Below, piece by piece: positions 1 through 19,176 of a stretch of 64,000 nt of DNA. Origin of the DNA: Lachnospiraceae bacterium (GTDB lineage: Bacteria > Bacillota > Clostridia > Lachnospirales > Lachnospiraceae). Within the stretch, counting starts at the first letter, position 1, and the number at the start of each line of letters is the position of its first letter. The DNA is taken from contig JAJQCZ010000023.1 in the NCBI GenBank assembly GCA_021202465.1, positions 115,092-179,091 of the forward strand, given 5' to 3'. The notes under the pieces are model-generated. The model searched no databases. It saw only the letters and a program-made list of their open reading frames with translations, and had not been told where the DNA came from. The position numbers and the translations under genes are program-made.

Positions 1-2238
1 TTTGCTTTGGCGGTGACCATGCCGCTGCTGTTTACGGTAGCTACGGAAGTATCACTCGAAGTGTACGTGATGGTTCCGGTTCCGCTCGCCGTGATCTTCG
101 TGGTTGTATCCACTTTGATCGAACTGCTTGCTGCCGTCGCCGTCACGGTCTGGCCGGCCTTAGCTACGGTGATTGAAATCGTCTTTACGGCGGATTCATT
201 ATAATTCGTTGATGCTTTCGCGGTGACCGTAATGATTGCGGAGCCTGCTGCCTGTATCGTCACCACGCCCGCAGGACTTACCTTTACAACATCCTCATCG
301 TTGCTTGCATAGCTCAGCGCACCGTCTCCGCTCGCCTTCGCATCCAGCGCAAACGCAGCATCTCCATACGTCCTGCTATAGAAATCTGTTCCGCTGACTG
401 TCTGGGAGGCCTTATTGATCGTAAACGTTTTTTCCACGCTGCCTGTATAGTTTCCGTTTCCCGTTATTGTAACTGTTGCTGTGCCGACCTTCGTATTATT
501 GCTGTAGGATACGGTATAGTCTCCATGACCCGCATCGTCCCGCGTCAGAGGTACACCCCCGTCCGTCACATCTACGTCCGGCGTTTTCGCGGTACCGTCA
601 TACGCAAAGTCTGTTTCAGAAAGCGTGATCTCGCAGCCGGAAATATCTTCTTTCACAGAAATAGTAAAGGTCTCTGAAGCCGCCAGATAATTCCCGGTCT
701 CATCGGCATACACTGTAATAACAGCCGTTCCGGCCGAAATTCCGCTGATCTTCCCGGATGAGTCCACCGATGCCACGTTATTATTATCGGAGTAATACGT
801 CAGCTGTACTTCCGTCGCGACAGTAATCAAAGCCGTACTCCCCACGGCAATTTCAGAAGCAGATACTGCGGCGCCGATGTCCTGCGTACCTTTTTCAATC
901 GTGAACGCTTTTGTCACCAGCCCGGTATATCCGCCCATGCCCTTTACGATCGCGATAGCTGTCCCCGCATTGACATTATTATCATAGGTTACCGTATAAT
1001 CCTCATTTTCTTTCAATGTCTCGTTTTCATGGGTAACCGTAACCATCGGTTCCTGTTCTGTTCCGTCAAATGTACAGCTGTTCGAAGTCAGAGAAACCTG
1101 GCATTCACTCAGGCTGAGCCGCTCCGTTCCCTCCTCTGTTACCGTAATCTCAAAAGACTGCGATACCTGATTGTAATTATCTCCGGATGCCGTAATTGTA
1201 ATGGTTGCTGTGCCCGCACTCACGCCTGTCACGGTAAAAGTATCTTTCTCCGCACAGACTACAGTTGCTATACTTTCCTGAGAGGACTGGGCAGTAAAGT
1301 TCGACTCGGCTGCCACCGCCCTGATGGCCGCAGTTCCTCCTACAGCAACATCCGTCGCTGACACGGATAACTCGATAGCCTGATCCGCTTTGGCAATTTC
1401 AAATATTGCCGAAATGGATTCCTTATAGTTTCCCTGCCCCGTCACAGTCACCTTTGCCTCACCGGCATTGACATTATCGCTGTAGGTAACCGTATAATCT
1501 GCATCCTCTGTCAGAACTGTATCACCGGAAGATACGATGACAACCGGCTTCTTCTCCGTGCCGTCATAAACATAGCTGTCAGCAGAAAGCATAAGCGTAT
1601 AATCTGCAATGCTGATTGCCTGTATCGTAAATTCTTTCTCAACAGTACTCTGATAATTTCCGCGGCCTGTAATGACAACGGCTGCCGTACCGGCATTGAC
1701 ATTATTTTTATAAGTCACCGTGAAATCCGCACCCTCTGTCAGCGCCGTGGAACCGTCTGCCACAATCACAGATGGCTTTTTCGCTGTTCCGTCATAGGTA
1801 TAGTCCTCTTCAGAAAGTGTCACCGTGCAGCGGCTGATATCAATGGCCTCAATGGTAAATTCTTTCGAAATCTCACCGGTATAATTCCCTGTACCGCTTA
1901 CAGAGACTGTCCCTGTGCCAATCGCTGTATTGTTGCCGTATGCCACAATATAGTCTGTATTTTCTTCAAGAACAACCGCTCCATTGGTCACTGTAACAGA
2001 AGGCGTCTTGGCCGTTCCATCATAGGTAAATGTGTCAGCGGAAAGTGTCAGCGCATATCCGGAGATTTCTGCGCGGATGATCGTATAGGATACCGTCTGT
2101 TCCCCGGTACAGTTATCCCTGCCTGTTATCGTTACTTTGGCGGTTCCCACATTTACATTACTGCTGTAAGAAACAGTATAATCCGTTCCTTCCGTCAGGA
2201 CAGAAGAACCCTTTGAGACCGTCACCGTCGGCATTTTT
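1..2238 (-). CDS. Giant secreted repeat protein, downstream part (cut by window edge)
   Basis: This frame is open on the minus strand from 2238 to base 1 with no stop, and it continues the protein that starts at 5374 after a one-base frame change at 2234-2238. It encodes tandem YDG/MBG-type units of about 75 residues. Each begins with a Y-x-Y-D-G-T-(E/A)-K-x-P motif (near 2238, 2030, 1810, 1575, 1080 and 612) and ends in G-N-Y-x-G. Two Big_2-like blocks (about 1390-1170 and 870-660) are interspersed. The last 411 bases are about 92% identical to 8251-8661 in the neighbouring giant gene, so the protein probably also ends in a Big-type and LRR C-terminus outside the window. Such repeats form extracellular beta-sandwich stalks. 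The ligand is unknown. Confidence 0.75.
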
Positions 2239-5200
2239 CCGTCCCATCATATGTATACTTGTCCTGAGATAAGCTCACAGTGCAATCCGAAAGTTCCGTC
2301 TGCGAAATCGTATACTCTGCCGTCGCCGTGCCGGTGTAGTTTCCGGTTCCCGTCACAGACACTGTGTATGTTCCGACATTTTTACTGTCACTATAGGTAG
2401 CGGTATAATCTGTATCCTGCGTCAGCGTGACAGAATGGCAGACCACTGTCACTCCGGGATTTTTCACTGTCCCATCATAGCTGTAGGAAGTCTGATCCAA
2501 CGTGATGCTGCTATCGGACAGATCTCTCTGAGTCACCGTAATATCTAAAGAAATACTACCGGCTTCATAGTAACTGTTGCCTGCCGCATTCACAGTAATC
2601 ACGGTTGTACCGACACCCACAGCCGTCACCACACCTTTTGATGAAACAGTAGCTACGGAAGAATCGCCGGTAACATACGTAATGGTTCCGTTACCTTTTG
2701 CTGTAATCGACGTCGTATCACCGAATACAATCTCCTCATCTGCCATCGAGACCGTTAACGTATTCTCCGCTTTATTGATTATAAAATATAGCGTCGCCGT
2801 CCCGGTGAAGTGACCGCTGCCGGTGACAGTGACGGTTGCCGTGCCGGGATAAACATTGTTCGCATAAGAAACCGAGTAATCCGTCGATTTCGTCAATGTC
2901 TGACTGCCGTATTTTACTGTTACAGTCGGCCGTTTTGAGTAACCATTATATGTGTACTCAGTCTGTGACAATGTGATTTCACAATCATTAATATCCGCTG
3001 TGCCCCAATTCACCTCTGTCGAACCGGCGCTGAGTCCTTCATCGCAATATGCAACTACCTGATAGGTGTACAAATTGCTATCGGAAACTTCGGAATCCGT
3101 ATAAGAGACTTCTGACGATGTCTGCAGCATCTCATATTCCCCCGTTCCCGTTTTCCTGTATATATAGTAACCGTCAGCCCCCTCAATTTCGCTCCAGGAA
3201 AGAACCGCCGTATCCTCATTTTCCGTCAGAGTGACTTTGGGAGACTCAAGGTAGAAAATAGAAATCGTATCTGAAGCTGCACTATATTGTTTTTCAGAGT
3301 TCCTGGCAGCTATCACATAAAAAGAGTACGTGGTTCCACTTGTGAGATAGTAACTGATAGTCAGCGACTGTGTGCTTGCGCTTCCGGCGCTGACGTTATA
3401 ATAAGATGATTCCTGAGATGTCGTGAAATACACAAAGTAGCTGGTTGCCCCCGGAACCGTCTCCCACGTAACCTGAATCCCTGTTTGGACATTACTGACA
3501 TCTAGCAGTGTCGGCACAGGCAGAAAGATCGACGACACTTCGCAAGTCTCATAACTGCTCTCATCATCAAACTGAACGACCACCTTATAGGTATAGGTCT
3601 CCCCACCAGATACATCCGTATCAATATAGATCGTGTCCTCTGTTGTTTGAATGAGCGTATAGGTCCCATCCTCTGTTTGTCGGTAAACCAAAAAAGATTT
3701 TGCACCGACAAGAGTACTCCATTCCACCTGTAATCCAGTTGAAACCGAAGATACCGATGGAATCATCACTTCCTGCTTATTCTGCGCAAGACTTTTCGAA
3801 TTTCCGGAATATGCTTCTACCCAGACGTAATAGTTCTTTCCGTTCGTCGCGCTAATCGTCGACGTCGTCCCGCCGTCCGCTACCGTTGTTTTACTGCAGG
3901 TACTCCCATACGCGCGATATACATAATAGCCTTCCGCGCCTTCCACCGCGTCCCAGCTTACCTCAAGGCTGCCCGATGATGTCTCAACACGGACATTCTC
4001 CGGCGCTTCCATGGCGGGATGAACGGAAAATGTTCCGTCTGAAGAAATTGAGTAGAAAACCGGCGTTGTCGACACAGAACCGTAGGAAGAGCTGTCTCCG
4101 GTCGCATACCAGACCACTGTCCCATCTGACACAATCGGCTGGCAGTCAGAGAGCTGACCATCTACCGTATAAATCTCACTGGTGGTATCGCCCGCTCCAT
4201 CCAGATAAACATAATGCAGTTTAGTCATTTTTGAATATGTAACGGAAGAATTTTCATATTCCGTCGTCGTCCACATCAGCAGGAAAGAATCCGAACCGAG
4301 TTTTACCAGCTGCGGCGTCGAAGCCGTGACGGTACCATCCGTATCATAATCCGTAATCCACTTTATTTCCGTTCCGGATGAAGAAAAATCACTTCGGGAA
4401 GTCACAGCAACATAGACATTACGGGCCGTATGACTGCTCCAGTTATCATCCTGGGTGACAGAATTGCCCGCCGCAAGATACGACGAGGAAGAATATTCCA
4501 GACCGCCCAGGGAAGCGCCGGTCTTGTTGGTGCCGGATTCTCCCTCAAAAGTTAACAGATTGATAGAGCTGTTACCACTGCCGCTGAACGTGCTGCTGCC
4601 AGCCTGCTTTTTATATTTGATCAAAACGGCTGCTCTGGGATATGCGTCTCCATGATCCAACGCGATCAGATTGGCCTCGTCATCTACCATGATAAACTGG
4701 TTAAAAGAATGGCTGACATATCCATAATTGACATTCATGACCGAATAGTACGAATCGGCAATCGTCATATCCGATTCCTGTACCTGTATCGTCAGGTTCG
4801 CCTGATGATGATACCCGTCACTGGAGGCATACATCGTATGGCTGGTACGAATATACAGATACCCTCCGTATTCCGTCATGCGGCAGCTGCCCGAGGCGAA
4901 CGGTACATAGGTATTCGCTCCGCATAAGCTGGCTGCACCTTCTCTTTCCCAGTCCGTACTGTATTTTACTACACGGATCACTTCCACCGTATCGTCTTCA
5001 TCGGTGTTCGACTGCCCGAAAACCAGGTAATATGCATCCTCTCCGGCATAGAATCCTCCAAAATAAGACAGCTCCATGTCAACGGTCTGAGCAGACACAA
5101 GATTGTAATTGCTATCATAATACTCTACGACGATGGACCCGCTGACATATTCGACCCTCATAAAACCATCATTCGTTTCCGTCAGATAGGAATAGGGCTG

Positions 5201-5374
5201 CGTCGCATAATATGTGGTATAGCTCTGATCCCCGGTATTATTGGACGCCGTCGCCGTGGCTGTCGTCTCCTCTGCATAAACCACGTCAGAACTGACTCCC
5301 CATATACATACAAGCACCAGAATCAGCACAGAAAAAATTTTCATTCCGGGATTTCGCAATCTTTCCCTTGTCAT
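2222..5374 (-). CDS. Giant secreted FN3/YDG-repeat protein, N-terminal part (frameshifted at its end)
   Basis: The N-terminus is a signal peptide: basic residues, a hydrophobic core (MKIFSVLILVLVCIWGVSS) and a VYA-E cleavage-like site. I choose ATG 5374 because GGGAGG (5384-5389) precedes it at good spacing. The longer ATG at 5434 lies almost at the transcription start implied by a TATAAT at 5440-5445. After a ~400-residue region that could be a beta-propeller (no recognised family) come at least four fibronectin-III-like domains (about 4010-3020), then YDG and Big_2 units. The frame stops at 2222 with a nonsense tail (KCRR) in the middle of a YDG repeat; one extra A in the A5 run (T5 at 2234-2238, plus strand) restores the repeat and opens the frame to base 1. 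This is probably a surface adhesin or matrix protein. The break may be a sequencing error, a true mutation or a slippage site. Confidence 0.8.
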   Translation of the reverse strand: MTRERLRNPGMKIFSVLILVLVCIWGVSSDVVYAEETTATATASNNTGDQSYTTYYATQPYSYLTETNDGFMRVEYVSGSIVVEYYDSNYNLVSAQTVDMELSYFGGFYAGEDAYYLVFGQSNTDEDDTVEVIRVVKYSTDWEREGAASLCGANTYVPFASGSCRMTEYGGYLYIRTSHTMYASSDGYHHQANLTIQVQESDMTIADSYYSVMNVNYGYVSHSFNQFIMVDDEANLIALDHGDAYPRAAVLIKYKKQAGSSTFSGSGNSSINLLTFEGESGTNKTGASLGGLEYSSSSYLAAGNSVTQDDNWSSHTARNVYVAVTSRSDFSSSGTEIKWITDYDTDGTVTASTPQLVKLGSDSFLLMWTTTEYENSSVTYSKMTKLHYVYLDGAGDTTSEIYTVDGQLSDCQPIVSDGTVVWYATGDSSSYGSVSTTPVFYSISSDGTFSVHPAMEAPENVRVETSSGSLEVSWDAVEGAEGYYVYRAYGSTCSKTTVADGGTTSTISATNGKNYYVWVEAYSGNSKSLAQNKQEVMIPSVSSVSTGLQVEWSTLVGAKSFLVYRQTEDGTYTLIQTTEDTIYIDTDVSGGETYTYKVVVQFDDESSYETCEVSSIFLPVPTLLDVSNVQTGIQVTWETVPGATSYFVYFTTSQESSYYNVSAGSASTQSLTISYYLTSGTTYSFYVIAARNSEKQYSAASDTISIFYLESPKVTLTENEDTAVLSWSEIEGADGYYIYRKTGTGEYEMLQTSSEVSYTDSEVSDSNLYTYQVVAYCDEGLSAGSTEVNWGTADINDCEITLSQTEYTYNGYSKRPTVTVKYGSQTLTKSTDYSVSYANNVYPGTATVTVTGSGHFTGTATLYFIINKAENTLTVSMADEEIVFGDTTSITAKGNGTITYVTGDSSVATVSSKGVVTAVGVGTTVITVNAAGNSYYEAGSISLDITVTQRDLSDSSITLDQTSYSYDGTVKNPGVTVVCHSVTLTQDTDYTATYSDSKNVGTYTVSVTGTGNYTGTATAEYTISQTELSDCTVSLSQDKYTYDGTEKCRR

Positions 5375-5439
5375 ATACAGTTTCCTCCCTTTTGCCGTTT
5401 TCCTCTCAACCATCTTAAAAGATTTGTTCCACATTTTTT

Positions 5440-5606: not shown

Positions 5607-5662
5607 AGAGTCAGTCACAGCTTTTCCAATCACAGGCGGTGCCGGAAGGAAGTGAGCGTTTC

Positions 5663-7252
5663 ATGAGTAAGATTTTTAACACGACGGCAAACTGCATACC
5701 GGAAAAACATTATATGGTGGATCTGACTGATCGGCTCCGACAGTTCAAAATCATCGTAGATCGCGGCGATTATTTTACGATCAATCGCGCCAGACAATAC
5801 GGAAAGACGACCACCCTCCTGGCACTGGCGAAATATCTCCGGAACGACTATCAGGTGATTCGTCTGGATTTTCAGCGATTCAGTGAAGCTTCCTTTGCAA
5901 ATGAAGGCAGCTTTATCTTCGCGCTCGCGAAGCGGATTCTTCTGGCTGTAAATGAAAGTGAGATTCCAGAGGAGCCTCGAAAGCAGCTTGCCTTTTTTGC
6001 GGGAAAAAAAGGCAACGCAGAGACACTGGATGATTTGTTTATTGTCCTCAATGAATGGTGCGAACAGTCTGAAAAACCTGTCGTCCTCATGATCGATGAG
6101 GTGGATCAGGCCTCCAACTATCAGGTATTCCTGAATTTTCTGGCACAATTGAGAGCCAATTATATTGAGAGAGACCTGATTGCTACCTTCCACTCCGTCA
6201 TTCTGGCCGGAGTCCATGACATTAAGAACCTCCGGAGAAAATTTGTCGCACAGGAAGAGCATAATACAAATTCTCCCTGGAATGTGGCGGCAGATTATAA
6301 CATTGATATGAGTTTCTCCGCCGCCGATATCGCGGGGATGCTCCGTGAATATGAAAATGATTACGCCACAGGAATGAATCTGGAGGCCATCGCACAGGAA
6401 ATCTATGAATACACCTCCGGATATCCGTTTCTGGTGTCACGCATCTGCAAATATCTGGACGAAACCCTGCCGGGTACCGGCGGCTTCCCGGATCGAACCG
6501 CTGCCTGGACGAAAGAGGGAATCACAAAAGCGGTCGGCGCCATCGTCGTGGAGGAAAATACGCTTTTTGAATCCCTGATCGACAAAGTAAACCTGTATCC
6601 GGATTTAAGGGAAATTCTGTACGATATTCTGATAAACGGTGCGGACGTTTATTATAATCCGGACAGCGTAGCCATCAGTGTGGCCAAGATGTTCGGATTT
6701 GTCAAAAAAGCAGATTCAAAGATCATCATCGCAAACCGCATCTTTGAAACCCGTTTATATAACTATTTTCTACTCTCCGAGGAAAACCGGACAACGGATA
6801 TTTACCGTCTCGGAGTGCGGGAAAAATATCAGTTTATACGGGATGACGGACTTGATATGGAGCTAATCCTGGAACGGTTCGTCGTCAGCTTTGACGATCT
6901 CTACGGCGACCGGGAGCAGAAATTCAAAGAAGAAGATGGCCGAAAGTTCTTTCTTCTGTATCTGCGTCCCATCATTAACGGGGAAGGAAATTATTATATC
7001 GAATCCCGTACGCGCAATATGGAGCGCACAGATATCATTATCGATTACAAGGCCAAACAGTATGTGATCGAGCTCAAGCTCTGGCACGGAAACGCCTACA
7101 ACACACGCGGCGAAAAGCAGTTAAGTGATTACCTGGACTATTATCACCTGAACAAGGGATATATGCTGAGTTTCAATTTCAACCAAAAGAAAGAAATCGG
7201 CCTGAAGAAAATCCAGGTCGGAAATAAGCTGCTGGTAGAGGCGGTGGTATAA
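5663..7252 (+). CDS. AAA-ATPase-like protein with C-terminal PD-(D/E)XK nuclease-like domain
   Basis: About 529 residues from ATG 5663, which has GGAAGGAAG upstream; a longer GTG start at 5639 lacks a ribosome site. The N-terminal half matches the AAA-ATPase_like family (PF09820 type): a degenerate Walker A (ARQYGKTTTLLALA) and a Walker B (VVLMIDEVD). The C-terminal ~110 residues match the associated PD-(D/E)XK domain (DUF1703/PF08011 type), with D-I-I-I-D-Y and then V-I-E-L-K as the D...ExK core. This family is multi-copy in many gut Clostridia and Bacteroidetes; its biological role is not settled, and a DNA-related or defence role is often suggested. It stands alone between two giant surface-protein genes on the opposite strand, with its own promoter and terminator, as expected for an inserted cargo gene. 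Confidence 0.85.
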   Translation: MSKIFNTTANCIPEKHYMVDLTDRLRQFKIIVDRGDYFTINRARQYGKTTTLLALAKYLRNDYQVIRLDFQRFSEASFANEGSFIFALAKRILLAVNESEIPEEPRKQLAFFAGKKGNAETLDDLFIVLNEWCEQSEKPVVLMIDEVDQASNYQVFLNFLAQLRANYIERDLIATFHSVILAGVHDIKNLRRKFVAQEEHNTNSPWNVAADYNIDMSFSAADIAGMLREYENDYATGMNLEAIAQEIYEYTSGYPFLVSRICKYLDETLPGTGGFPDRTAAWTKEGITKAVGAIVVEENTLFESLIDKVNLYPDLREILYDILINGADVYYNPDSVAISVAKMFGFVKKADSKIIIANRIFETRLYNYFLLSEENRTTDIYRLGVREKYQFIRDDGLDMELILERFVVSFDDLYGDREQKFKEEDGRKFFLLYLRPIINGEGNYYIESRTRNMERTDIIIDYKAKQYVIELKLWHGNAYNTRGEKQLSDYLDYYHLNKGYMLSFNFNQKKEIGLKKIQVGNKLLVEAVV

Positions 7253-7361: not shown

Positions 7362-10300
7362 TCAGCCCTTCTTCACCGTAATCTTACTGCTTGCTCCCTT
7401 CGCTTTAAAGATCTTCTTGTACGCAGAAACCTTCGCACTCGGCACCTTGAACGTACAGGTACTCTTGATTCCCTTAAAGGCGCTGGCGCCGACCTTCGAG
7501 CTGGTCAGCTTCGTGGTTTTCAATGTAACCGAAGCCAGCTTCTTGTCTCCATAAAAAGCCTTCTTGCCGATCGTCGTCAGCTTTGTGGACTTGCTCACGA
7601 AGGTCTTCAAGGCCGTGCAGCCCTGGAAGGCTGATGTGTCGATCTTCGTCAGCACCGTGGAGGTAAGGTTCACATAGGTAAGCGTCGTGCATTTATAGAA
7701 GGCCGAGGAACCGATGGTCTTCACCTTCGCCAGCGTGATCTTCCCTGATGTGCTGCCGATGGTTTTGATCTTCGTGCAGCCGTAGAAGGCCTTGCTGCCA
7801 ATCGTCGTTGCCTTCTGCAGTCCGGCTACCGTCGCCAGCTTACTGCAGCTCTGGAAGGCGCTGCTGCCTACGGAAGTGACCGCCGCGCAGCCGGTGACCT
7901 TTGTCAGCGCCGTGCATTTGTAGAATGCTTTCGATCCGATCGATGTCACTTTACTGCCGACAGACACCGTTTTCAGCTTCGTATACCCTGAGAAAGCGCT
8001 GGCGCTGATCGCCTTGACACTATACGTTACACCGCCGTATGTCACGGTGGCCGGGATTTTCGCCGAGGTGGCCGTTTTGCTCGACAAGCCCGTTACAGTG
8101 ACCGCACTGGCGGATGTCAGCTTGTATTTCACCGAGCCAGCCGTGAAGGTGTCTCCCTTTACAAGAGCCGTAACTTTGATCGACACAGTCTTCGTGCCCG
8201 CATTGTAGTTGCTGTTCCCGGCCGCCTTTACCGTAATGGTCGCTGTTCCCTTTGCCTTTGCGGTCACCTTGCCGCTGCTGTTGACCGTTGCAACGGAGGT
8301 GTCACTCGAAGTGTACGTGATGGTTCCGGTTCCGCTCGCCGTGATCAATGTGGTTGTATCCACTTTGATCGAACTGCTTGCTGCCGTCGCCGTCACGGTC
8401 TGGCTGGCCTTGGCCACTGTGATCGTAATCGTCTTTGCGGCGGATTCATTATAATTCGTTGATGCTTTCGCCGTGACCGTAATGATTGCGGAGCCTGCTG
8501 CCTGTATCGTCACCACGCCCGCAGAACTTACCTTTACAACATCCTCATCGCTGCTTGCATAGCTCAACGTACCGTCTCCGCTCGTTTTCGCATCCAGCGT
8601 AAACGCAGCATCTCCATACGTCCTGCTATAGGAATCTGTCCCGCTGACTGTCTGGGAAGCCCTGACTACGGTAATTGTAACCGACAATTCCGCCGCCATA
8701 TAATTGTCTGTTTCCGCAGCCGTGATTGTAATGACAGCAGAGCCTGCTCCCTGTATCGTTATCACGCCCGCCGAGCTTACCTTTACAACATCCTCATCGC
8801 TGCTCGCATACGTCAGCGCTCCATCCCCGGCCGTCCTCTTTGCATCCAGATTAAACGTTCCTGTTCCGTATGTCTTCGTATAGGAAGCCGTCCCGCTGAT
8901 GGTCTGCGAAGCCTTTACAACCGTAATGGCTATTGTTTTTTCAGCCTGTTCATAATTATCCGTGCCTTTCGCAGTCACCGTTATCGTCGCCGTTCCTGCT
9001 CCTTTAATGGTGACCTTTCCAGTTTCGTCCACGGTTACTACGCTCGTATCGCTGCCCGCATACGTCAGCGCCCCATCCCCGGCCGTCCTCTTTGCATCCA
9101 GGGTAAATGCTCCGTCTCCGTATGTCTTTGGATAGGAATCCGTCCCGCTGATGGTCTGCGACGCCTTATCAATCGTAAATGTCTGCGTCACCGTCCCGGA
9201 ATAGTTTCCGCACCCGGTCACGGTGATCGTGGCGGTTCCCGCGTTGATGTTATCCGTATAAGTCACGGTATAATCATTTTCCGGGGTAAGCACATCGCCA
9301 TCCGCATTTTTCACTGTGATACCCGGTGTTTTCTCCGTCCCGTCGTACGTATAATCATAGTCTTCGTCAGGCGTCACGGTCCATTCGTCCGTTGTATAAT
9401 AGACGGATAATTCTTTGACACTGCCTGCGAAGGACGATGCTGTTCCCGCATAATACAGCTGTACAGAGGATGCATACGCGTATCCCTCCAGACTGGCGCA
9501 GCCATCTGTTACCGTCAGGAGAATCGGTGTCATCTCCCCGCCCTCACTGTCTGTGAACACACAATATACATCCGCCGTCAGCCCGCTGAAGGAATACGTT
9601 CCCCCGCCATATACCGCCAGAACGTCTCCGGTCAGAGCGGGCCGCGCCGGAATATAGAGCTTTGTCGTATTCCCGCAATAGCTCTCCGAGGTTTCCGCCA
9701 CACGGATCCACAGATATTTCCCGACGGTTCCCGGTTCGAGAGCAATCGTGCTGCCGTCGCAATACGTCCAGTAAACCCCGTCAAAGCTGTACTCATAGGA
9801 ATCATCAAATGCCTCTGCCGTCGTCTCATTCGCATAATCCACTGTCACCGTCGGAGCCTCCGGCACATTCAGGACCGTCACCGACTGACCAAAGAGGATA
9901 TCCCGATAGCTCAGCACCTTCTCCTTGAACACGATGTAATACTCGTCGAGTTCATATTCCCGGCCGCTGTCCAGATCTGTAGCTTTCTCGGTCTTCGCCT
10001 CCGTGTTGAAGGTGACCCACGCCTGTTCGCCGATCAGACGCATCTTGATCAGATATTTCAGGCTCAGTGCCCAGTCGATGCTCTCTCCAGCGTAATAGGC
10101 TTCCCGCACACCGCCCCACAGAGCACGGGTCATAATGGCCGCCACACGCAGGCTGCGGATCTGGTCGATGGTCTCCTCCGCCCCAATCATCTTGTCGATG
10201 ATCTTCGAGCCGACCTTCAGCCCGATATATACAACATTCCACGCGCTGCTGCTCACACCAAACGCCTTCTGCAGACCCTTGGCAACATATTTGTACGTAA

Positions 10301-13300
10301 GACTCGTCGCTTCTGTCTTCAGGAGCTCCTGTACAAAGACCTCTTCCTGCGTGGCGAAGCCCTCTTCCAGACTCTGATAGATATCCCACAGTTCTTCCAC
10401 GACATCCTGTTCGAAGGACGTAAGTCCGCTGTCCGCAGCAGTACTTCCTATCTGAGAGAGCAGGTTTTCAATAGCCTCCAGTTCCCCGTATCCGGTCATC
10501 TGCTCCAGCAGCACGGTAAGCACATATTCCGCCTGCTCCCGGGCCGCGCTGATCGTGATAAACTGGTTCGTAATCTCGACGGAAGTCACCCATGCGGTCC
10601 CCGCATCATTCAGCAGGCCGATCGCGTCACCGAAACCGGAAACCACCTTACCGAATGAATCTGCAAAAAAGTCGTTCACGTCCTCACCATCTTGCAACAG
10701 AAGGGCCTTAATGGAGAGCTTCGCCGCACTGAAGCCGATCTTCTCCAGCGAATCCATGAATCCATCCACACCCGCGGTCTTTAACTGCATCGCGAGATGC
10801 ATCTGTGTCGCTGTCTCAGAGAGTGTAGTATTGATCAGGTCGTTTACTGACGCTTCACCAGACTGCCCGAGCACCGTACTGATCTCACCCAGAACCGATT
10901 TGACAACCTTCAGATACGTCAGGTCGACCTGCGTATCAACCGCCTCCTGGAAGGAGTCGTCCGAAAGCATCTCGCAGATATATTCCCGCGTGAGTTCCTT
11001 GATATCATCTCCCGTGAAATAATCCAGATCCTGATCAAGTAAGGCTTCCTTGGTGCCATAGAGCATCTCCCCGCACAGTCCGAGAAAGTCCTGATCGCTC
11101 ATTTCGGCATAGGTATAATAATTGAAATTCCCGTTTGTCGTGAAGTACGTATATGCATCATGTGTCTCTCCGCTGTAGGAAACACTTGCCAGGATCTCGT
11201 CGGCATCCTCTGTACTGTACAGATTCATATCCACGATGCGGATCTCCACCTCGATGCCGTACTCGTCCGCGACTTCCGCCACGGCGCTGTGCAGATACTC
11301 AAGATCTGATTCGGTTACAGCGCTATAGCAGGCATATTTCCTGGTATAGGTCTCTCCGACCGCCAGTGCGTTCAGCGTCTCGTCCGTTCCCAGGTACTGA
11401 CTGTAGCCGCTGGCATTTTCATAGACCGTGTTCAGCAGTGTGACCGATCTCGTCTCTTCAGTGGTCTCCGTGTCATCCCCGTCCGTATAGCTCTCGTAGG
11501 TATTCACAATATCTCCCACCACATTCAGCTGCGGCAGATAGATATCTGCTCCGCCCACGTTCTGCAGGGACAGGCTGAAATACAGTCCGCCCCAGGCGAT
11601 CGTACTGTTGATCTCGGCAATCAGACGGATCGCGTCCAGTCCGTAGACAGTGATCGGGTCTTCCGTCTGGAACAGCGCGGAAACCATGGTGTCAAACTGG
11701 CTCAGCACGCCGCTGTACGAAGCCGTCAGATCGTACTCGCCGGCCTGGTCTCCCCGCAGGATCCACTCGATGGTCTTTCCCGTCTGTCCACTCAGAGAAT
11801 CAAATGTCACCTCCGCATCATCACACGCCCCGCCCTCATTCATCAGCGTCAGGCCTTCCGGAAGATCCAGAGACACCACATTGTTGACCAGTTCAAAGCT
11901 GCTCGACGCATTGTTGAACAGGTAAAACTTTACGTCAAAGAATTCCTTCAGGTAGGACGCCTCCACCGGAACATCAAGAATCGCGATCGCCATGCTCTCG
12001 CTCCCGGAGCTTCCGTCGCCGAAGGTGACGGTCCAATTGGAGCCCGGACCCTTGTCGTCGTCATCGTCCGTACTATCATCTTCAATCCAGAGCGCAACGC
12101 TCAGATTCCGTTTGCCGTCGGAGGTCGTGACCGTCGCCTGCGAGCTTCCTTCACCGTCAAACAGATAGATCTCTGTATCCAGCGGCTCTGAGCCATAGGT
12201 CAGATGCAGGGTCACCCGGACCACATTCTGATTCGCCGGATCGTTGACATCAAAGCCCGCCGCCACGATCTCATCGAGCGTCATCCGGTTCACTTCAAAC
12301 TCTCCGCTGACAATCTCCTGGGCCGTCATGGTAATCGTAAGCGTAGCTGTCTCTCCCGCCGCCACGGTCACCTGGCGCGTTACCGGCAGGTAGCCGCTGT
12401 CATAAGCGCCGACCGTATAGCGGCCGGCTTCGGCCGTGAAAGAGGCGATACCGTCGACATTGGTCCTTGCGATGTTCTCCGTCGTATGTTCCATGTCAAA
12501 ATAGACCGGCACGCCGCTTATTGCATCCCCGTTTTCGTCAACGATCGTGATTTCGGCCGTCCCCAGCAGGGATTCATCCGCCACTGTGAGTGTTTTTGTC
12601 ACACTGGCCGTGTTCCCTTCTGCATCTGTCACAGTCAGAGTAAGCGTGTACGTTCCCTCTGTGGCCTCCTCCGTAGTTGTTCCGTCGTCCGAATCCTCCT
12701 GCGCGGTATCTTCGTTTTCCGCACTTGTATCTTCTGACTCATCCGTCTCCGACTTTGTATAGGTATGCGTCACACGGGCCGCCGTACCTGAGACCGGTTC
12801 ACTGCCATCCCCGAAATTAAAAGTATAGGAAACGATCCCGCAGTCCGCAGCGGACGCGGAGGCGTCGAAAACGTATTCCTTATCCCACTGCAGCGTCGAA
12901 TCACAGCTTACCGAAGCAGTCACAGAGAGCTCCGCTTCCACCCACGCCGCGTCACTCTCGCAGGAGGAGGTATTTCCGCACAGATCCACCGCTTCCACTT
13001 TATAATAATAGGTCTCATTCTCTGCCGCACCGGAGTCCTCATAAAGGAAGCCCGTGCTGCCGTCACTCCGGTTCTCTTCCCCGTCCTCCGCGCTCTTCTG
13101 CGCAACCAGGCTGTACATCCCGTCCTCGGTTCTCCGGTAGATCCGATATCCTGACAGGTCGCTCTCCGCCCAGCCGCTCCAGGTCACACGGATCACGCCG
13201 TCCGCACCGTCCGCAGCTACTTCCGTCACCTGCGGAGCCGTCCGGTCAATCGTATAGACTGTCTCCGTCCCGGAAACCGTCTCATGTCCGGCCGCATCCG

Positions 13301-15071
13301 TTACCGTCACGGTGACCGTCAGCACATCCCCGTCCTGCAGATCCGCGACAGGAATCTCTCCGCTGGCCAGTTTATAATAATTTTCGATGTCTGTCTCACT
13401 GACAAGTGTATATTCACTATCCGAGTCATCATTCACCGTATACGTCGCTCTGACCGTCTTAACGCGCCAGTTATCACTGACCAGCACGCGGAAGGTGGTG
13501 TTTGACGCACCGATCACACTCCCTGATGCCGGAGATACGCTCAGGATCTGAGGCGCCTCTGTATCCTCCGGCATCGTGCAGGTCACGCTTGCCGACGCCT
13601 CGCTGATATTGCCCGCCGCATCAGCCGCCTGCAGATAATACTGATACGTCTGTGCCGGTTCTGTACTCCGATCCGTATAGGTCTTTGAAGAAAGCCCTTC
13701 CGCCAGCAGGTCCCAGGTCTCCCCGTCCGTCGAGCGGAAAATGCGCATTCCTGCGAAATCAGCATCCCCATTTCCTTCCCAGCACAACACCACGGCGCCC
13801 GATGAGGCATCCGCCGTGAGTCCCTCCGGGACATCCGGCGCCGTGCGGTCTACGATATATTGCGTATAGGGAGCACTGGTCCCGGATTCACTCTCATTCC
13901 CCGACGTATCCGTCGCGATCCCCCGGATATAGAGATATCCCTCCGCATATACATAATTCCCTAATTCGTCCTGTTCGTCCAGGGAAATGGTCTCTGAGAC
14001 CGTCTCGCTCGTCCCGCCGTCCTCGTAAGAAACTGTCTTATAATCCTCCCAGATAATACCGTTCGCGGAGGTCTGGATCTGCACGGAGGCAATCCCCAGA
14101 TTGTCTGTCGCCGTGATCTGCAGCGCAATTTCTCCGTTATAATACCCCGCATCCGGTCCGATGGCAGTGATCACCGGCGCCGTCGTGTCCTCCTGCGTTG
14201 CGACCGTTACACTCTCAGACGCTTCTCCGCGGTTCCCGAGCCGGTCATAGGCAGCGACCCGGTAGGTATATTCCGTATTGGCCTGCAGATTATACAGGTT
14301 CACGCCCAGGGTGGAAGAAACATCCTGAACCTTCACATATTCCCCGTCAACCAGCTGTTCCACGCGGAAGAATGAGAAATCCGCGTCCTCCACAGCATCC
14401 CAGCTTAAAGTCACCGTCGTCGCCGTACTCACACCGGAAAGACCGGTCACCTGCGCCGGGCCGGTGTTGTCGACCGTATACGTGCGCGTCAGAGCATCGC
14501 TTTCGTTGTCTGCGGCATCCACGGCAACCGCTTTCACCTGGATCGTCCCATCCGCATAATCTGCCATGGAAAGCGTCATTTTTATGGATTCCGCTTCCGA
14601 CGAGCCGATTTCTGTCCACGTATCGCCGCCGTCCGTGGATACAGAGAGCCGGATTTCAGCTACCTGGATATTGTCCGTCGCCCGGGCATACAGCGTTGTC
14701 TCGCCGCCGATGACCGTGCTGTTGGCCGGTGTCAGCTGCACCACAGTCGGCGCTTCCGTATCGGAGGTGGCCGCCGCCACGACGGTCCTTGACGCCTCGC
14801 CCTCCTGGCCGAAGAAATTCACGCCGGTAACGTAGTAATAATACTTTTTATCTGCAACGATATCTTCATCCGTGTAGCTCTGCACAGAGCGCCCGGTTAT
14901 CTCTGCAAGCCGCGTATACTCTGTCTCATCTTCGCTGCGCCGGTAGATATAATAGGTCTCCGTATCCGCTTCCTTGGAAATGCCCCAGGAAAGGACGATC
15001 TGATAGGTATCGCCGGTAGCCGTCACAGAGGAAATCTTTGCCGGGACGGAATCGTCAACCGTAATGACCTG
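7362..15071 (-). CDS. Giant surface protein, piece 4: FN3/PKD/Ig-like, helical, Big-repeat and LRR C-terminus
   Basis: This frame follows directly, in phase, after the TAA at 15072-15074. It was probably one protein with the pieces upstream; an isolated start at GTG 15026 has no ribosome site. In order it has FN3-like domains alternating with Ig-like ones (to about 12950), a PKD-like unit (FNFGDG, about 12800), a carboxypeptidase-regulatory-like unit (about 12560-12310), and a long unique part with a helical domain (about 11100-9950). After these come a YDG unit (about 9380), Big_2/MBG repeats (9180-8190) and a C-terminal LRR_5/BspA block ending in a Lys-rich tail. There is no LPxTG or transmembrane anchor, so it is secreted or held non-covalently. 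The 8251-8661 part is duplicated at 1-411. Confidence 0.8.
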   Translation of the reverse strand, partial: QVITVDDSVPAKISSVTATGDTYQIVLSWGISKEADTETYYIYRRSEDETEYTRLAEITGRSVQSYTDEDIVADKKYYYYVTGVNFFGQEGEASRTVVAAATSDTEAPTVVQLTPANSTVIGGETTLYARATDNIQVAEIRLSVSTDGGDTWTEIGSSEAESIKMTLSMADYADGTIQVKAVAVDAADNESDALTRTYTVDNTGPAQVTGLSGVSTATTVTLSWDAVEDADFSFFRVEQLVDGEYVKVQDVSSTLGVNLYNLQANTEYTYRVAAYDRLGNRGEASESVTVATQEDTTAPVITAIGPDAGYYNGEIALQITATDNLGIASVQIQTSANGIIWEDYKTVSYEDGGTSETVSETISLDEQDELGNYVYAEGYLYIRGIATDTSGNESESGTSAPYTQYIVDRTAPDVPEGLTADASSGAVVLCWEGNGDADFAGMRIFRSTDGETWDLLAEGLSSKTYTDRSTEPAQTYQYYLQAADAAGNISEASASVTCTMPEDTEAPQILSVSPASGSVIGASNTTFRVLVSDNWRVKTVRATYTVNDDSDSEYTLVSETDIENYYKLASGEIPVADLQDGDVLTVTVTVTDAAGHETVSGTETVYTIDRTAPQVTEVAADGADGVIRVTWSGWAESDLSGYRIYRRTEDGMYSLVAQKSAEDGEENRSDGSTGFLYEDSGAAENETYYYKVEAVDLCGNTSSCESDAAWVEAELSVTASVSCDSTLQWDKEYVFDASASAADCGIVSYTFNFGDGSEPVSGTAARVTHTYTKSETDESEDTSAENEDTAQEDSDDGTTTEEATEGTYTLTLTVTDAEGNTASVTKTLTVADESLLGTAEITIVDENGDAISGVPVYFDMEHTTENIARTNVDGIASFTAEAGRYTVGAYDSGYLPVTRQVTVAAGETATLTITMTAQEIVSGEFEVNRMTLDEIVAAGFDVNDPANQNVVRVTLHLTYGSEPLDTEIYLFDGEGSSQATVTTSDGKRNLSVALWIEDDSTDDDDDKGPGSNWTVTFGDGSSGSESMAIAILDVPVEASYLKEFFDVKFYLFNNASSSFELVNNVVSLDLPEGLTLMNEGGACDDAEVTFDSLSGQTGKTIEWILRGDQAGEYDLTASYSGVLSQFDTMVSALFQTEDPITVYGLDAIRLIAEINSTIAWGGLYFSLSLQNVGGADIYLPQLNVVGDIVNTYESYTDGDDTETTEETRSVTLLNTVYENASGYSQYLGTDETLNALAVGETYTRKYACYSAVTESDLEYLHSAVAEVADEYGIEVEIRIVDMNLYSTEDADEILASVSYSGETHDAYTYFTTNGNFNYYTYAEMSDQDFLGLCGEMLYGTKEALLDQDLDYFTGDDIKELTREYICEMLSDDSFQEAVDTQVDLTYLKVVKSVLGEISTVLGQSGEASVNDLINTTLSETATQMHLAMQLKTAGVDGFMDSLEKIGFSAAKLSIKALLLQDGEDVNDFFADSFGKVVSGFGDAIGLLNDAGTAWVTSVEITNQFITISAAREQAEYVLTVLLEQMTGYGELEAIENLLSQIGSTAADSGLTSFEQDVVEELWDIYQSLEEGFATQEEVFVQELLKTEATSLTYKYVAKGLQKAFGVSSSAWNVVYIGLKVGSKIIDKMIGAEETIDQIRSLRVAAIMTRALWGGVREAYYAGESIDWALSLKYLIKMRLIGEQAWVTFNTEAKTEKATDLDSGREYELDEYYIVFKEKVLSYRDILFGQSVTVLNVPEAPTVTVDYANETTAEAFDDSYEYSFDGVYWTYCDGSTIALEPGTVGKYLWIRVAETSESYCGNTTKLYIPARPALTGDVLAVYGGGTYSFSGLTADVYCVFTDSEGGEMTPILLTVTDGCASLEGYAYASSVQLYYAGTASSFAGSVKELSVYYTTDEWTVTPDEDYDYTYDGTEKTPGITVKNADGDVLTPENDYTVTYTDNINAGTATITVTGCGNYSGTVTQTFTIDKASQTISGTDSYPKTYGDGAFTLDAKRTAGDGALTYAGSDTSVVTVDETGKVTIKGAGTATITVTAKGTDNYEQAEKTIAITVVKASQTISGTASYTKTYGTGTFNLDAKRTAGDGALTYASSDEDVVKVSSAGVITIQGAGSAVITITAAETDNYMAAELSVTITVVRASQTVSGTDSYSRTYGDAAFTLDAKTSGDGTLSYASSDEDVVKVSSAGVVTIQAAGSAIITVTAKASTNYNESAAKTITITVAKASQTVTATAASSSIKVDTTTLITASGTGTITYTSSDTSVATVNSSGKVTAKAKGTATITVKAAGNSNYNAGTKTVSIKVTALVKGDTFTAGSVKYKLTSASAVTVTGLSSKTATSAKIPATVTYGGVTYSVKAISASAFSGYTKLKTVSVGSKVTSIGSKAFYKCTALTKVTGCAAVTSVGSSAFQSCSKLATVAGLQKATTIGSKAFYGCTKIKTIGSTSGKITLAKVKTIGSSAFYKCTTLTYVNLTSTVLTKIDTSAFQGCTALKTFVSKSTKLTTIGKKAFYGDKKLASVTLKTTKLTSSKVGASAFKGIKSTCTFKVPSAKVSAYKKIFKAKGASSKITVKKG

Positions 15072-17984
15072 TTACAGACTGCCGGTCGCACCGTCCGCAT
15101 CCGTCAGTTCAAAGATCACGGTATACTCCGCAGCCTCAAGCTCATCAATATCCCAGTTTACAGTATAGAGAACTCCGTCGTCATCCACAGACTTTCCGGA
15201 AGTAAGTGCCTCTCCGATGGCAACTTTTTCACTGTCCGCATTCAGGTAATAAAACTGTCCCACCGCGCCGGTCAGGTTTCCGTCATCCTGAACCACGGCA
15301 TACAGATCACTGTGTTTATCCCCGACTTTGTAATCCGCATTTTCTGTATAGATACTCAGAACCTGCGGCTGAACCGTCGTCACGGTCACAGACGCCTCCG
15401 CTGTCGTCTCCTCGGATTCTTTGCAGCCGATTACCGTATAGGTATACGACGTCCCGGCTTCCAGCCCGCTGTCGGTATAGGACTGTTCCGCGGTCTCCGC
15501 AATCAGCGTGCCATCACGGTAAACCTCATATCCAGTCACGTTCTCACTGGCTGCCATCATCCAGGCCAGCGTGACAGAACGGCTGCGCACCTGCGTTGCG
15601 CGCAGGTTGGAGACGGAAAGCTTCTCAATAGATGTAAGAACTGTCTCATCGGACAGATAGCTGCTCCACGCAGATTCGTAGTCACTCAGACTGTCAGTCG
15701 GAACAAAAATCGTGCTTACAGTAAACGTGGGGAAGAAATATTGCAGACGCGATGTAGTCGTGCTGCTCCCCACCGTCGGCACAGCTGTTCCCAGGAAAAT
15801 CATACTTTCAAAAGAACAGCCATAAAAACAGCTTTTATCTGTCACCCAATTTGTATTCCATGTCCGCCTAGAAACATACAGCAACGTTACACCCGTTCCC
15901 AGAATAACATCAGAAAACCCCGTACAGCCGCTGAAGGCATACGCACCAATACTTTTCACAGAATCCGGAATTAACAGCGTACCATTCAGCTTAGAGCAGC
16001 CGCTAAAGGTATAACCGCTTACAGCCGTCAGGCCTTCCGACAGGGTAAGCACGCCGTCAAAGCCGCTGCAGGAGTTAAAAGCATACTCTCCCACCGTCGT
16101 GACCGCATCCGGCAGGAACAGATCGCCTGTCAGACCGCTGCAGTTATAGAAGGCGTAACTGCCGATGCTGATCAGCGTTTCCGGCAACTCCAGCGTCCCG
16201 GTCAGTCCATTACAGTAATAAAACGTATGACTGCCGATTTTTCCCAGTGAATCCGGCAGCTCCAGCGTTCCATTAAAACCTGTGCATACATAGAAAGCAT
16301 AGTCACCGATCTCCGTCACAGCATCCGGGATCACCAGATCTCCCGTCAGAGAACTGCACCAATAGAACGCATACGAACCAAGTGATTCCAGCGTCTCCGG
16401 CAGGTTCAGAGCTCCCGCCAGACTTTTACAATTATAAAACGCGTAATTGCCAACTTTCTGCAGCGTCTCCGGCAAAATAACGGACGACAGCGCCGAGCAA
16501 TTATAGAAAGTATACGCCTCTATCGTAATCAGCCCCGACGGCAGCGTCATTTCCGTCAGTGAGCTGCAGCCGTAGAACGCATAACTCCCGATTTCCATGA
16601 TCTGATCAGTCAATTCCGCGCTTTCAAGCGCCGTGCAGCCATAAAACGCATACGAGCCAATTTTCTCCACGCTCTCCGGAAATTGTACGTTTGTAAGCGT
16701 TGTGTTATTCTGAAAAGCACGGCTGCCGATTTCGGTAACAGTATCCGGGATTATAATCTCCGTCCCATCGCCCGTGTAGCTGACCAGCTCCCCGTCCTTT
16801 ACCACAAACGCATCTTCACCGTCCGCGACCAGCCTGGTCTGCGCCTGTATATATGGTGCATACGTGTCCGCATAACCGGCAAATGCATCCGCCGGAACCA
16901 CAATCTTCGTCAGGTTTTTAAAACAGTCGCTGCTAAAGAAATTTTTCACATAAGAAGTGCTTGTGCTTCCGGAATCCGAAGTGCTTATAAGCGGCGCCGA
17001 GTCGCCGGTAAAGGTAATTTCCGTAACACTGGAACAGTTATAGAACGAACACCGTGAAATGTATGTAGAAGTATATCCATACATCCAGGAAACATTTTCC
17101 CCGATAACAATTCCCGTAAAGCCGGTACATGAGCCAAACGCCCCCAGATTAATTTCCGTTACGGAATCCGGGATTGTCAGTGTGCCGGTCAGATTTTTAC
17201 AGTTATAAAACGCGTAATTGGCAATACTGCTTAAGGACCGCGACAAGGTCAGCGTTCCGTCAAATCCGCTGCAGCCGCTAAACGCAGAAGCGCTGATTGT
17301 CGTTACACTGTCCGGAATCACCAGATCACCCGTGAGGCCGCTGCAGCCGCAAAAAGCACACGAACCGATGGTTGTCAATCCGTCCGGCAATGTCAGATCG
17401 CCCGTCAAACCGCTGCAGCCATTAAACGCAGCAAAGGATATTTCCGTAAGAGACTTCGACAGAGTCAGACTACCGTTTAACCCGGAACAGCCGGAAAAGA
17501 CATATGTCCCCATTTCAGTCACACTGTCCGGAATCACCAGATCACCCGTGAGGCCGCTGCAGCAGTAAAACGCATACGCGCCAATAGTGGTCAGCGTTTC
17601 CGGCAGTTTCAGATCACCTGCAAGGCCGCTGCAGCTATAAAACGCATACCGGCCGATGGTTGTCAGCGTTTCCGGCAATTCCATGCTGCCGGTCAGAGCG
17701 GTACAGTTGTAAAACGCGTAATTGCCGATACTTACCAGTTTTTCCGGGAACGCAAACGAAGTAAGCGCCGTACAGCTGCGAAACGCGTTGGCATCAATCA
17801 CAGTCACACTCTCCGGGCAAATCACGCTCTCCACGATTGTATTATTCCGAAATGCATAGCTGCTGATTTCTGTCACCGTATCCGGAATTGTGACATCTGC
17901 CTCCGAGCCGGTATAGCTCAGCAACACGCCCTCTGCTATCACAAACGAATCTTCACTGTCGGCTGTCAGCCTGGTCTTTCCTTC
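15072..17984 (-). CDS. Giant surface protein, piece 3: two BspA-type LRR modules, FN3, Ig-like start
   Basis: Open between two in-frame stops (TAG 17985-17987 and TAA 15072-15074). The frame is the same as the flanking pieces, and the protein family pattern continues across both stops. It carries two LRR_5 (BspA-like, Treponema pallidum-type) solenoids of about 23-residue repeats with the consensus A-F-Y-x-C-S-x-L-x-G-x-L-x-L-P-x-x-L-x-x-I-G. The first solenoid closes with a cap like V-V-P-A-D-A-F-A-G-Y; the second ends in F-V-P-T-D-S-L-S-D-Y, then an FN3 domain (about 15600-15380) and an Ig-like segment. The first module is a close duplicate of piece 2 (compare 16984-17280 with 18121-18420). 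An alternative GTG start at 17942 exists, but the reading frame before it is plainly coding. Confidence 0.75.
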   Translation of the reverse strand, partial: EGKTRLTADSEDSFVIAEGVLLSYTGSEADVTIPDTVTEISSYAFRNNTIVESVICPESVTVIDANAFRSCTALTSFAFPEKLVSIGNYAFYNCTALTGSMELPETLTTIGRYAFYSCSGLAGDLKLPETLTTIGAYAFYCCSGLTGDLVIPDSVTEMGTYVFSGCSGLNGSLTLSKSLTEISFAAFNGCSGLTGDLTLPDGLTTIGSCAFCGCSGLTGDLVIPDSVTTISASAFSGCSGFDGTLTLSRSLSSIANYAFYNCKNLTGTLTIPDSVTEINLGAFGSCTGFTGIVIGENVSWMYGYTSTYISRCSFYNCSSVTEITFTGDSAPLISTSDSGSTSTSYVKNFFSSDCFKNLTKIVVPADAFAGYADTYAPYIQAQTRLVADGEDAFVVKDGELVSYTGDGTEIIIPDTVTEIGSRAFQNNTTLTNVQFPESVEKIGSYAFYGCTALESAELTDQIMEIGSYAFYGCSSLTEMTLPSGLITIEAYTFYNCSALSSVILPETLQKVGNYAFYNCKSLAGALNLPETLESLGSYAFYWCSSLTGDLVIPDAVTEIGDYAFYVCTGFNGTLELPDSLGKIGSHTFYYCNGLTGTLELPETLISIGSYAFYNCSGLTGDLFLPDAVTTVGEYAFNSCSGFDGVLTLSEGLTAVSGYTFSGCSKLNGTLLIPDSVKSIGAYAFSGCTGFSDVILGTGVTLLYVSRRTWNTNWVTDKSCFYGCSFESMIFLGTAVPTVGSSTTTSRLQYFFPTFTVSTIFVPTDSLSDYESAWSSYLSDETVLTSIEKLSVSNLRATQVRSRSVTLAWMMAASENVTGYEVYRDGTLIAETAEQSYTDSGLEAGTSYTYTVIGCKESEETTAEASVTVTTVQPQVLSIYTENADYKVGDKHSDLYAVVQDDGNLTGAVGQFYYLNADSEKVAIGEALTSGKSVDDDGVLYTVNWDIDELEAAEYTVIFELTDADGATGSL

Positions 17985-19012
17985 CTACAGCGAATCCGAC
18001 CATGCGCCGGCATAATCCTCGAAAGAGTCCGCAGGGACAACGATTTCTGTCAGGTTGGCAAAACAGCTGCTGCCGAAGAAATTTGTTATGTAAGCGGTGC
18101 TTGAGGTTGAGGAAGAACTTATAAGCGGCACTGACTCGCCGGTAAAGGTGATTTCCGTAACGCCGGAGCAGCCGTAAAACGGGCACCACGAAATATATGA
18201 GGAAGAATACCCATACATCCAGGAGACATTTTTCCCGAAAACAATCTTTGTAAAGCCGGTACAGGAGCCGAACGCCCCCCGATTAATTTCCGTTACGGAA
18301 TCCGGGATTGTCAGTGTTCCGGTCAGATTTTTGCAGTTATAAAACGCGTAATCAGCAATACTGCCTAAGGACTGCGACAGGGTCAGAGTTCCGTTAAAGC
18401 CGCTGCAGCCGTAAAACGCGGAGGCGTTGATTGTTGTCACACTGTTCGGGATCACCAGGTCGCCCGTCAGTCCGCTGCAGCCGTAAAACGCATACGAACC
18501 GATGGTTGTCAGTCCGTCCGGCAATGTCAGCTCACCCGTCAAGCTGCTGCAGCCATAAAACGCAGAGGCGCCGATGGTTGTCAGGCCCTCCGGCAGAACA
18601 ACGCTCGTAATCTCCGTATTATAAAAAACTTTCTCTCCGATTTCTGTGACGGACTCCGGAATCACAATGTCTGTCGCCGTTCCATTATAAGCGGTCAGCA
18701 CACCATTTTCATCAATGGTAAACTCGCTGTCTGCCTCATCGCCTGAATCACCGGACGCTTCCTCCCCGGTGTCGTCAGAAGCCGCTTCAGATACATCGGA
18801 AGAACTGTCTTCCGCATTCACCCCGGTCGTATCGGAGCTGTCCGCCTCTGACTGATCTGCTGTTTCCTCTGAATTGGAGACGCTATCGTCAGAACCGGCT
18901 TCCAGAGAATCTTCTTCTCCCTCAGAACCGGTTTCCGCGGAACTATCTTCCCCTTCCGCGTCGGCCTCATTACTATCCTCTGTGTCCGCAGAACTCAGCG
19001 CAAGCGAAGACT
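17985..19012 (-). CDS. Giant surface protein, piece 2: acidic linker and first LRR module
   Basis: This frame continues the signal-peptide ORF after a one-base correction in the G6 run (C6 on the plus strand, 19013-19018). It starts with a ~90-residue Ser/Asp/Glu-rich linker, then a BspA-type LRR_5 module of about eight repeats and a cap (V-V-P-A-D-S-F-E-D-Y). It ends at TAG 17985, 15 codons before the point where the next module would begin. In the sister module the same position reads straight through (TYAPYIQAQTRL against AWSDSL-stop-EGKTRL), so the stop interrupts a protein rather than ending it. A GTG at 18821 could be called as a start but has no reason to be one. Confidence 0.7.
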
Positions 19013-19176
19013 CCCCCCTCTTCTTCCTCTAAAAAAGAGCTGCCTTCCTCTACGACAGCACTCACTTCCTGCTGCGTACCGCTCTGAATCTCCGTCGCCA
19101 GTGCATCCAGCGGAAATGACTGAATCGCCAATGCCGCCGCAAGTAAAATCGCTATGATCCGCTTTCCGTTTTTCAC
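18973..19176 (-). CDS. Giant surface protein, piece 1: signal peptide and N-terminus
   Basis: GTG start at 19176 with GGGGGA upstream and a consensus promoter at 19242-19270. The first ~28 residues are a classic signal peptide (KNGKRIIAILLAAALAIQS, then a DALATE-type cleavage region), followed by a Glu-rich stretch. The frame runs out-of-phase after the G6 tract (19013-19018) and stops at 18973 with a Cys/Phe-containing tail unlike the acidic linker. With one G removed, the linker continues into piece 2. The four pieces would form one secreted protein of about 3,930 residues. Confidence 0.7.
   Translation of the reverse strand: MKNGKRIIAILLAAALAIQSFPLDALATEIQSGTQQEVSAVVEEGSSFLEEEEGGVFACAEFCGHRG

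Follow-up and report, generated by a model that had tools for sequence, protein, structure and literature searches.

Three interruptions in a giant LRR surface protein gene of a Lachnospiraceae bacterium and its possible place in a putative slippage-switched gene set

In the assembly of a Lachnospiraceae bacterium (3.13 Mb in 67 contigs; G000), a single minus-strand gene, here called gene A, is predicted to encode a surface protein of ~3,930 residues, and its frame is interrupted at three points. Is this gene decaying, switched, translated whole in spite of its breaks, or broken only in the assembly? The window analysed is a stretch of 64,000 nucleotides (C64:115092-179091), in which gene A occupies positions 19176-7362. 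From its relatives, its siblings and the ordinary genes of the same genome, we give a probability of about one half to the reading in which slippage in G runs would switch a whole set of giant surface genes, gene A being a member that was locked off recently.

Gene A and its whole relatives

The following elements make up gene A:

18973..19176, minus strand: piece 1 (A1), GTG start at 19176, signal peptide and acidic linker, 67 codons plus stop
19013..19018, minus strand: G6 run (C6 on the plus strand), site of the frame change between A1 and A2
17985..19028, minus strand: piece 2 (A2), remaining linker and first LRR_5 block, TAG at 17985-17987
15072..17984, minus strand: piece 3 (A3), LRR_5 blocks and fn3, TAA at 15072-15074
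7362..15071, minus strand: piece 4 (A4), fn3/PKD-like/Big modules, a long domain that matches nothing in Pfam and a C-terminal LRR_5 cassette

The open frames of pieces 2, 3 and 4 extend over 19028-17988, 17984-15075 and 15071-7365, with the natural stop at 7362. Pfam domains above cut-off were LRR_5, fn3, Big_2 and LRR_8, and PKD scored below it. LRR_5 (PF13306) scored 141.1 bits in piece 2, 479.9 in piece 3 and 115.8 in piece 4, well over its curated cut-off of 27.7, which places gene A among the BspA-type LRR proteins. Neither an LPXTG motif nor a membrane anchor was found at the end of piece 4, whose terminus is SSKITVKKG. The original prediction, made from the sequence of this window, had read four minus-strand ORFs as one protein, broken at a C6 tract (19013-19018), a TAG (17985) and a TAA (15072); all four frames and all three breaks were confirmed. 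It had also considered promoter and signal peptide intact. The signal peptide agrees with both relatives described below (residues 1-54 aligned to P0004 and P0006), but the promoter is weak: two minus-strand candidate sites matched the consensus at 9/12 positions each, in a search that returned 3 sites in total versus a mean of 0.8 in shuffles.

Two relatives of gene A, P0004 (3,924 aa) and P0006 (3,864 aa; a named Lachnospiraceae MAG protein), are each encoded by one uninterrupted ORF. In protein alignments, residues 1-54 of A1, 2-347 of A2, 1-970 of A3 and 1-2569 of A4 correspond to residues 1-54, 51-399, 401-1344 and 1346-3924 of P0004, with identities of 83, 82, 79 and 85%; identities of the four pieces to P0006 are 78, 89, 85 and 61%. 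This colinearity with single-ORF relatives excludes a chance arrangement of the four frames, and the end-to-end alignment with both proteins bears out the family-consistent sequence that had been noted around the stops. As the pieces are contiguous on P0004, exactly one residue falls on each stop, and at both sites (TAG and TAA) P0004 and P0006 have a sense residue. Since the gene is intact in the relatives, gene A represents a broken allele of it; by these alignments it was once whole and carries three lesions in the present assembly. P0004 and P0006 likewise rule out that the pieces are separate genes in all homologues, the observation that would have refuted the original prediction.

A broken gene A might still be translated whole by readthrough or programmed frameshifting, and a readthrough protein was among the earlier proposals. 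Conservation of both sides of each break in the relatives would agree with this, and G runs could be slippery for the ribosome or the polymerase. However, the relatives are simply whole, translation would have to get past two stops as well as a frame change, and TAG, TAA and TGA terminate 41, 94 and 113 of 248 genes, respectively. TAG is an ordinary terminator here and not a reassigned codon, and no suppressor tRNA was detected in the 32 loci scanned, which represent part of the genome. Readthrough or recoding of gene A was rejected on this stop usage, and we regard its whole translation as highly improbable.

Recent decay, which had been proposed as well, is supported for the G000 allele, because neither the TAG nor the TAA is reversible by slippage; both relatives are open at these sites, as expected for a pseudogene with whole counterparts. 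The neutral nonsense-to-missense ratio of ~0.04 was not used for dating, since gene A is a mosaic. Compared in steps of 100 residues, P0006 is for the most part the nearer relative across pieces 2 and 3 and up to residue 300 of piece 4 (up to 99%). Over residues 701-1800 of piece 4 the nearer relative is P0004 (88-100%), whereas the intervening residues 301-700 resemble neither of them closely (52-63%). Furthermore, the C-terminal LRR cassette of gene A is common to siblings B (93%) and C (94%), the three being tandem genes. These mosaic blocks and the common cassette point to an exchange of segments among alleles and siblings. They also distinguish the present genes from the BspA-type LRR_5 giants of Lachnospiraceae and Clostridiales, which A, C, D and E resemble in containing LRR_5.

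Sibling giants with runs at the secretion signal

Among 14 large surface-type genes of G000 (at least 570 codons, breaks judged by reading), seven are broken (A-G). No break was seen in the other seven, the start of C4:34387-38631 being left out. The siblings of gene A are arranged as follows:

2222..5437, minus strand: first frame of gene B (signal peptide, 1,071 codons), colinear with P0165
2234..2238, minus strand: A5 run, site of the frame change in gene B
C64:111760-100804: gene C, signal frame followed by G8 and 3,455 open codons
C39: gene D, ribosome site, ATG and basic residues, G8, then hydrophobic signal core in another frame
C4:49476-38676: gene E, signal frame, G8, then LRR_5 repeats
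C50: gene F, frame change at an A7 run according to codon scores, without a whole relative
C57:43010-50665: gene G, G8 within the signal peptide, like gene D

The second frame of gene B runs from 2246 past the left window edge, and both of its frames are colinear with P0165 (2,092 aa). Gene D shifts a second time, at a short C run, and is colinear in its two frames with a counterpart in the sister species G005. The body of gene G gave FIVAR matches, and a search for LRR in it returned no match. Ten lesions lie in ~82 kb of giants versus two in 83 kb of ordinary segments, a rough contrast given the different detection methods.

In C, D, E and G, frames differ across the G8: the run separates the signal peptide, or its start, from the body and is positioned within the signal peptide (D, G) or just behind it. 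Secretion signal and body are likewise divided into two ORFs, with a long G tract between them, in the sortase-pilus switch of Bifidobacterium breve UCC2003 (bbr_0113, bbr_1889; PMC9187656). Both cases have the split near the 5′ end of a large surface protein in a gut bacterium, and in both the tract is present in sister species too. The affected proteins here are giant LRR/FN3/Ig-like proteins and not pilins, no sortase-pilus operon was seen, the runs comprise 7-9 G with switching deduced from their layout, and gene A itself has a G6 and two stops. In addition, gene A differs from a sortase-dependent pilin in having no LPXTG in piece 4.

For siblings C, D, E and G, phase variation is the best reading of this layout. 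Replication slippage would add or remove a G in the run and thereby turn the surface protein on or off in single cells, the switch runs being placed in or behind the secretion signal. Gene A would have lost its frame at the place corresponding to the sibling runs, behind the signal peptide, and, once silent, would have accumulated nonsense codons; intact segments could return by recombination among the alleles and siblings. The first break of gene A is located in the acidic linker behind the signal peptide, as in the two L037 genes described below.

The original prediction had suggested phase variation for gene A itself. Its signal/body layout at a G run fits, but the run is only G6, for which reason gene A is not filed as a slippage switch; no variation in the length of this run was seen, the whole relatives are in frame, and the two stops are not slippage events. 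Further points speak against the reading of a switched set: B, F and the second site of D shift at short A or C runs; frames are broken at G runs in the genes for PhoU and an RNA methyltransferase as well, neither of which belongs to the classic switched kind; gene G lacks an LRR match; dN/dS upstream of the run in gene E is 0.48; and G005 contains junk poly-G. No giant with a long run in the on state was seen; the readable G8 runs in the giants here and the runs in G005 and L037 are all out of frame.

InlA is a protein far shorter than ~3,900 residues. The inlA gene of Listeria monocytogenes encodes an LRR surface protein shortened by a frameshift at a 5′ poly-A tract (PMC2831843). Gene A is comparable in the truncation of an LRR surface protein by a 5′ homopolymer frameshift, and differs in its poly-G run and its ~3,900 residues.

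G runs in the genome, in sister species and in a separate MAG

Windows of G8 number 43 in G000, 133 in G005 and 14 in G002, whereas each of the remaining eight genomes of the genus has 0-6. Exact G7 runs number 4-30 in each of the eleven. An apparent G7 deficit in a 542-kb sample was dropped, as G000 has 16 G7 runs genome-wide. Four of the 26 distinct runs of at least 8 G in G000 are those of C, D, E and G, and five belong to a polysaccharide cluster on C67; one each is found in the genes for PhoU, the RNA methyltransferase, a gamma-glutamyltranspeptidase and a histidine kinase, and one before a GntR-type gene. Frames are discordant across the runs in C, D, E, G, PhoU and the methyltransferase. 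They are concordant in the histidine kinase and the gamma-glutamyltranspeptidase and, judged by open frame, in two glycosyltransferases; the remaining runs have a weak frame signal or lie at gene ends. When runs of at least 6 bases were scored in G000, 11 of 79 looked shifted, a count that is not a random sample because several stretches had been chosen for G runs or giant genes. On reading, five of the 11 were real (A, C, PhoU, methyltransferase, F), five were gene starts or ends, and one (C4:110473) was ambiguous. The same scoring in five relatives flagged 1 of 69 runs, with an in-frame stop.

The polysaccharide cluster (L113; G000:C67:46000-63000) contains its five G8-G9 runs within ~6 kb, among TupA-like, glycosyltransferase-2 and acyltransferase genes, and two of the five are in frame inside glycosyltransferase-2 genes. 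Such clusters are a usual place for G-run switches. Poly-G phase variation of the surface-glycan gene cgtB of Campylobacter jejuni is described in PMC6437147. That system and our data have G runs in surface-glycan genes in common; C. jejuni is from another phylum, giant secreted proteins carry runs here too, and the layout of our runs is known from assemblies.

In the PhoU gene (G000:C59:55209-55219; L115, L194), a G11 separates two PhoU domains in different frames, and across three close species this run is G6 and in frame (G002), G10 (G005) or G11 (G000). At the signal site of gene D the run is G8 in G000 versus G9 in G005. Since the run at a given site varies in length from species to species in D and PhoU, no single programmed frameshifting step fits. 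The run before the GntR-type gene is G10 in G000 and G9 in G005. Gene E has G8 in both species, inside 70 identical bases, which indicates a shared site with no length change. The RNA methyltransferase gene (PF04452; G000:C35:80101-80108, L070) changes frame at a G8 near its end. A pattern of start plus run was found among the 11 genomes only in D, G and the D gene of G005, together with one control hit, in G005.

Two tandem genes of the giant build were found in L037, a contig (JAJQDT010000075.1) of Lachnospiraceae MAG MI.11_2 with cov_46 in its title. The second consists of a frame with signal peptide and acidic linker, a G8 and a body of at least 359 codons, up to the contig end, in another frame. 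In the first, of which the part read begins after the gene start, a linker frame is followed by G7 and then, in another frame, by a body of 1,138 codons. No run of at least 7 G was detected in four other named MAG loci (L040 lying outside the scan). For gene C, the annotated start of its relative P0079, whose contig equals that of P0004 in length, is at the residue adjoining the run, which suggests that the signal frame may be out of phase there too; P0080 starts at residue 169 of the gene C frame.

Constraint, mutS and breaks in ordinary genes

Values of dN/dS against G005 were 0.15 and 0.14 for the two parts of gene D. Gene E gave 0.48 ahead of its run and 0.24 beyond it, and mutS 0.06 before and 0.02 after its stop, again against G005; PhoU downstream of its run gave 0.08 against G002. 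By these ratios, D, E, mutS and PhoU are under selection now or were until lately. Such persisting constraint fits switched genes, very recent breaks or consensus errors, and not old pseudogenes.

The mutS gene (G000:C6:22007-24619, L090) has an in-frame TAG mid-gene, with strong constraint on both sides and an open mutL adjoining. Seven aligned relatives have a sense codon at the TAG site; mutS is open and full-length in eight, including G005, has a TGA elsewhere in G002 and is partial in G009. The stop in G000 could be a consensus error.

Breaks in conserved ordinary genes were counted in a census from which segments with less than 65% identity, less than 80% coverage or no coding signal were dropped. 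After review, 2 of 65 segments of G000 were broken: mutS and a gene for a U32-type peptidase, which changes frame at a short C run (window 52862-52866) and whose parts match one ORF in G005 and G002. A third flagged segment, C39 9798-10789, was discarded on account of a gapless DNA alignment. Unreviewed flags amounted to 8/46 in G005, 7/29 in G002, 2/21 in G004, 0/29 in G006 and 1/24 in G007, and murF of G002 was among the flagged breaks. The assemblies of G005 and G002 have poly-G junk at contig ends and gaps.

These counts bear on the possibility that gene A is whole in the cell, its run length being misread and its stops representing miscalls or a minor strain. The breaks in mutS, strongly constrained downstream (0.02), PhoU and the RNA methyltransferase hit genes expected to be whole, and the sister assemblies G005 and G002 are rich in flagged breaks (unreviewed), murF included. 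Illumina reads, moreover, fail at G tracts (PMC9187656). Because genes expected whole are hit and both sister assemblies look poor, consensus or assembly error stays alive as an explanation. It has to contend with a broken fraction of 2/65 among ordinary segments versus 7/14 among giants, with runs at the same sites in other assemblies, including the named MAG with cov_46 in its title, and with nonsense codons, which are not homopolymer errors. On balance we regard it as the main rival of the set reading, though as rather unlikely.

Gene A and some siblings could also be plain recent pseudogenes, decaying in one strain without any switching and perhaps with mutS as mutator. The three lesions of gene A, two of them stops, the mutS stop in G000 and the short-run breaks in B, D, F and the U32 gene would agree with this, as would Vibrio mutS mutants, in which most single-base indels fall in homopolymer runs (PMC5854121). 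On the other hand, D, E and the L037 genes have their runs in comparable positions although they come from separate genomes, and G8 windows are more numerous in G005, where mutS is open, than in G000. The latter weakens an explanation by mutS alone, although some G005 windows are junk at contig ends or gaps. We consider decay without switching unlikely.

The reading of gene A as a locked-off member of a switched set can be widened to a clade-wide repertoire of LRR giants, capsule glycosyltransferases and perhaps PhoU under G-run switches, in which the mutS stop would have sped switching and locked some giants off in this strain; we propose this wider version only tentatively. No report of G-run switching in Lachnospiraceae was recognised in searches of the open-access literature. 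If the set reading is true, the kind of slippage switch that Bifidobacterium pili have at the secretion signal would also govern the giants of a Lachnospiraceae clade. Such genes would seem broken in assemblies and enter databases as headless proteins, and switched-off genes and real pseudogenes would be confusable. As runs of this length fit within ordinary reads, on and off states could be directly visible in public metagenomes.

Three other features of the window were recorded. A C12 run (55983-55994) lies inside a plus-strand frame (55745-56290) whose codon scores are coding and in frame on both sides; a Pfam search of this frame gave no match, and its N-terminus may be Fic-like. Between giants A and B, on the plus strand, 5639-7252 encodes an AAA-like ATPase with a weak PD-(D/E)XK nuclease match. 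Beside a stretch of low G+C (~56-62 kb), 61696-62682 encodes an AAA ATPase with an AbiLi-like PADLOC match.
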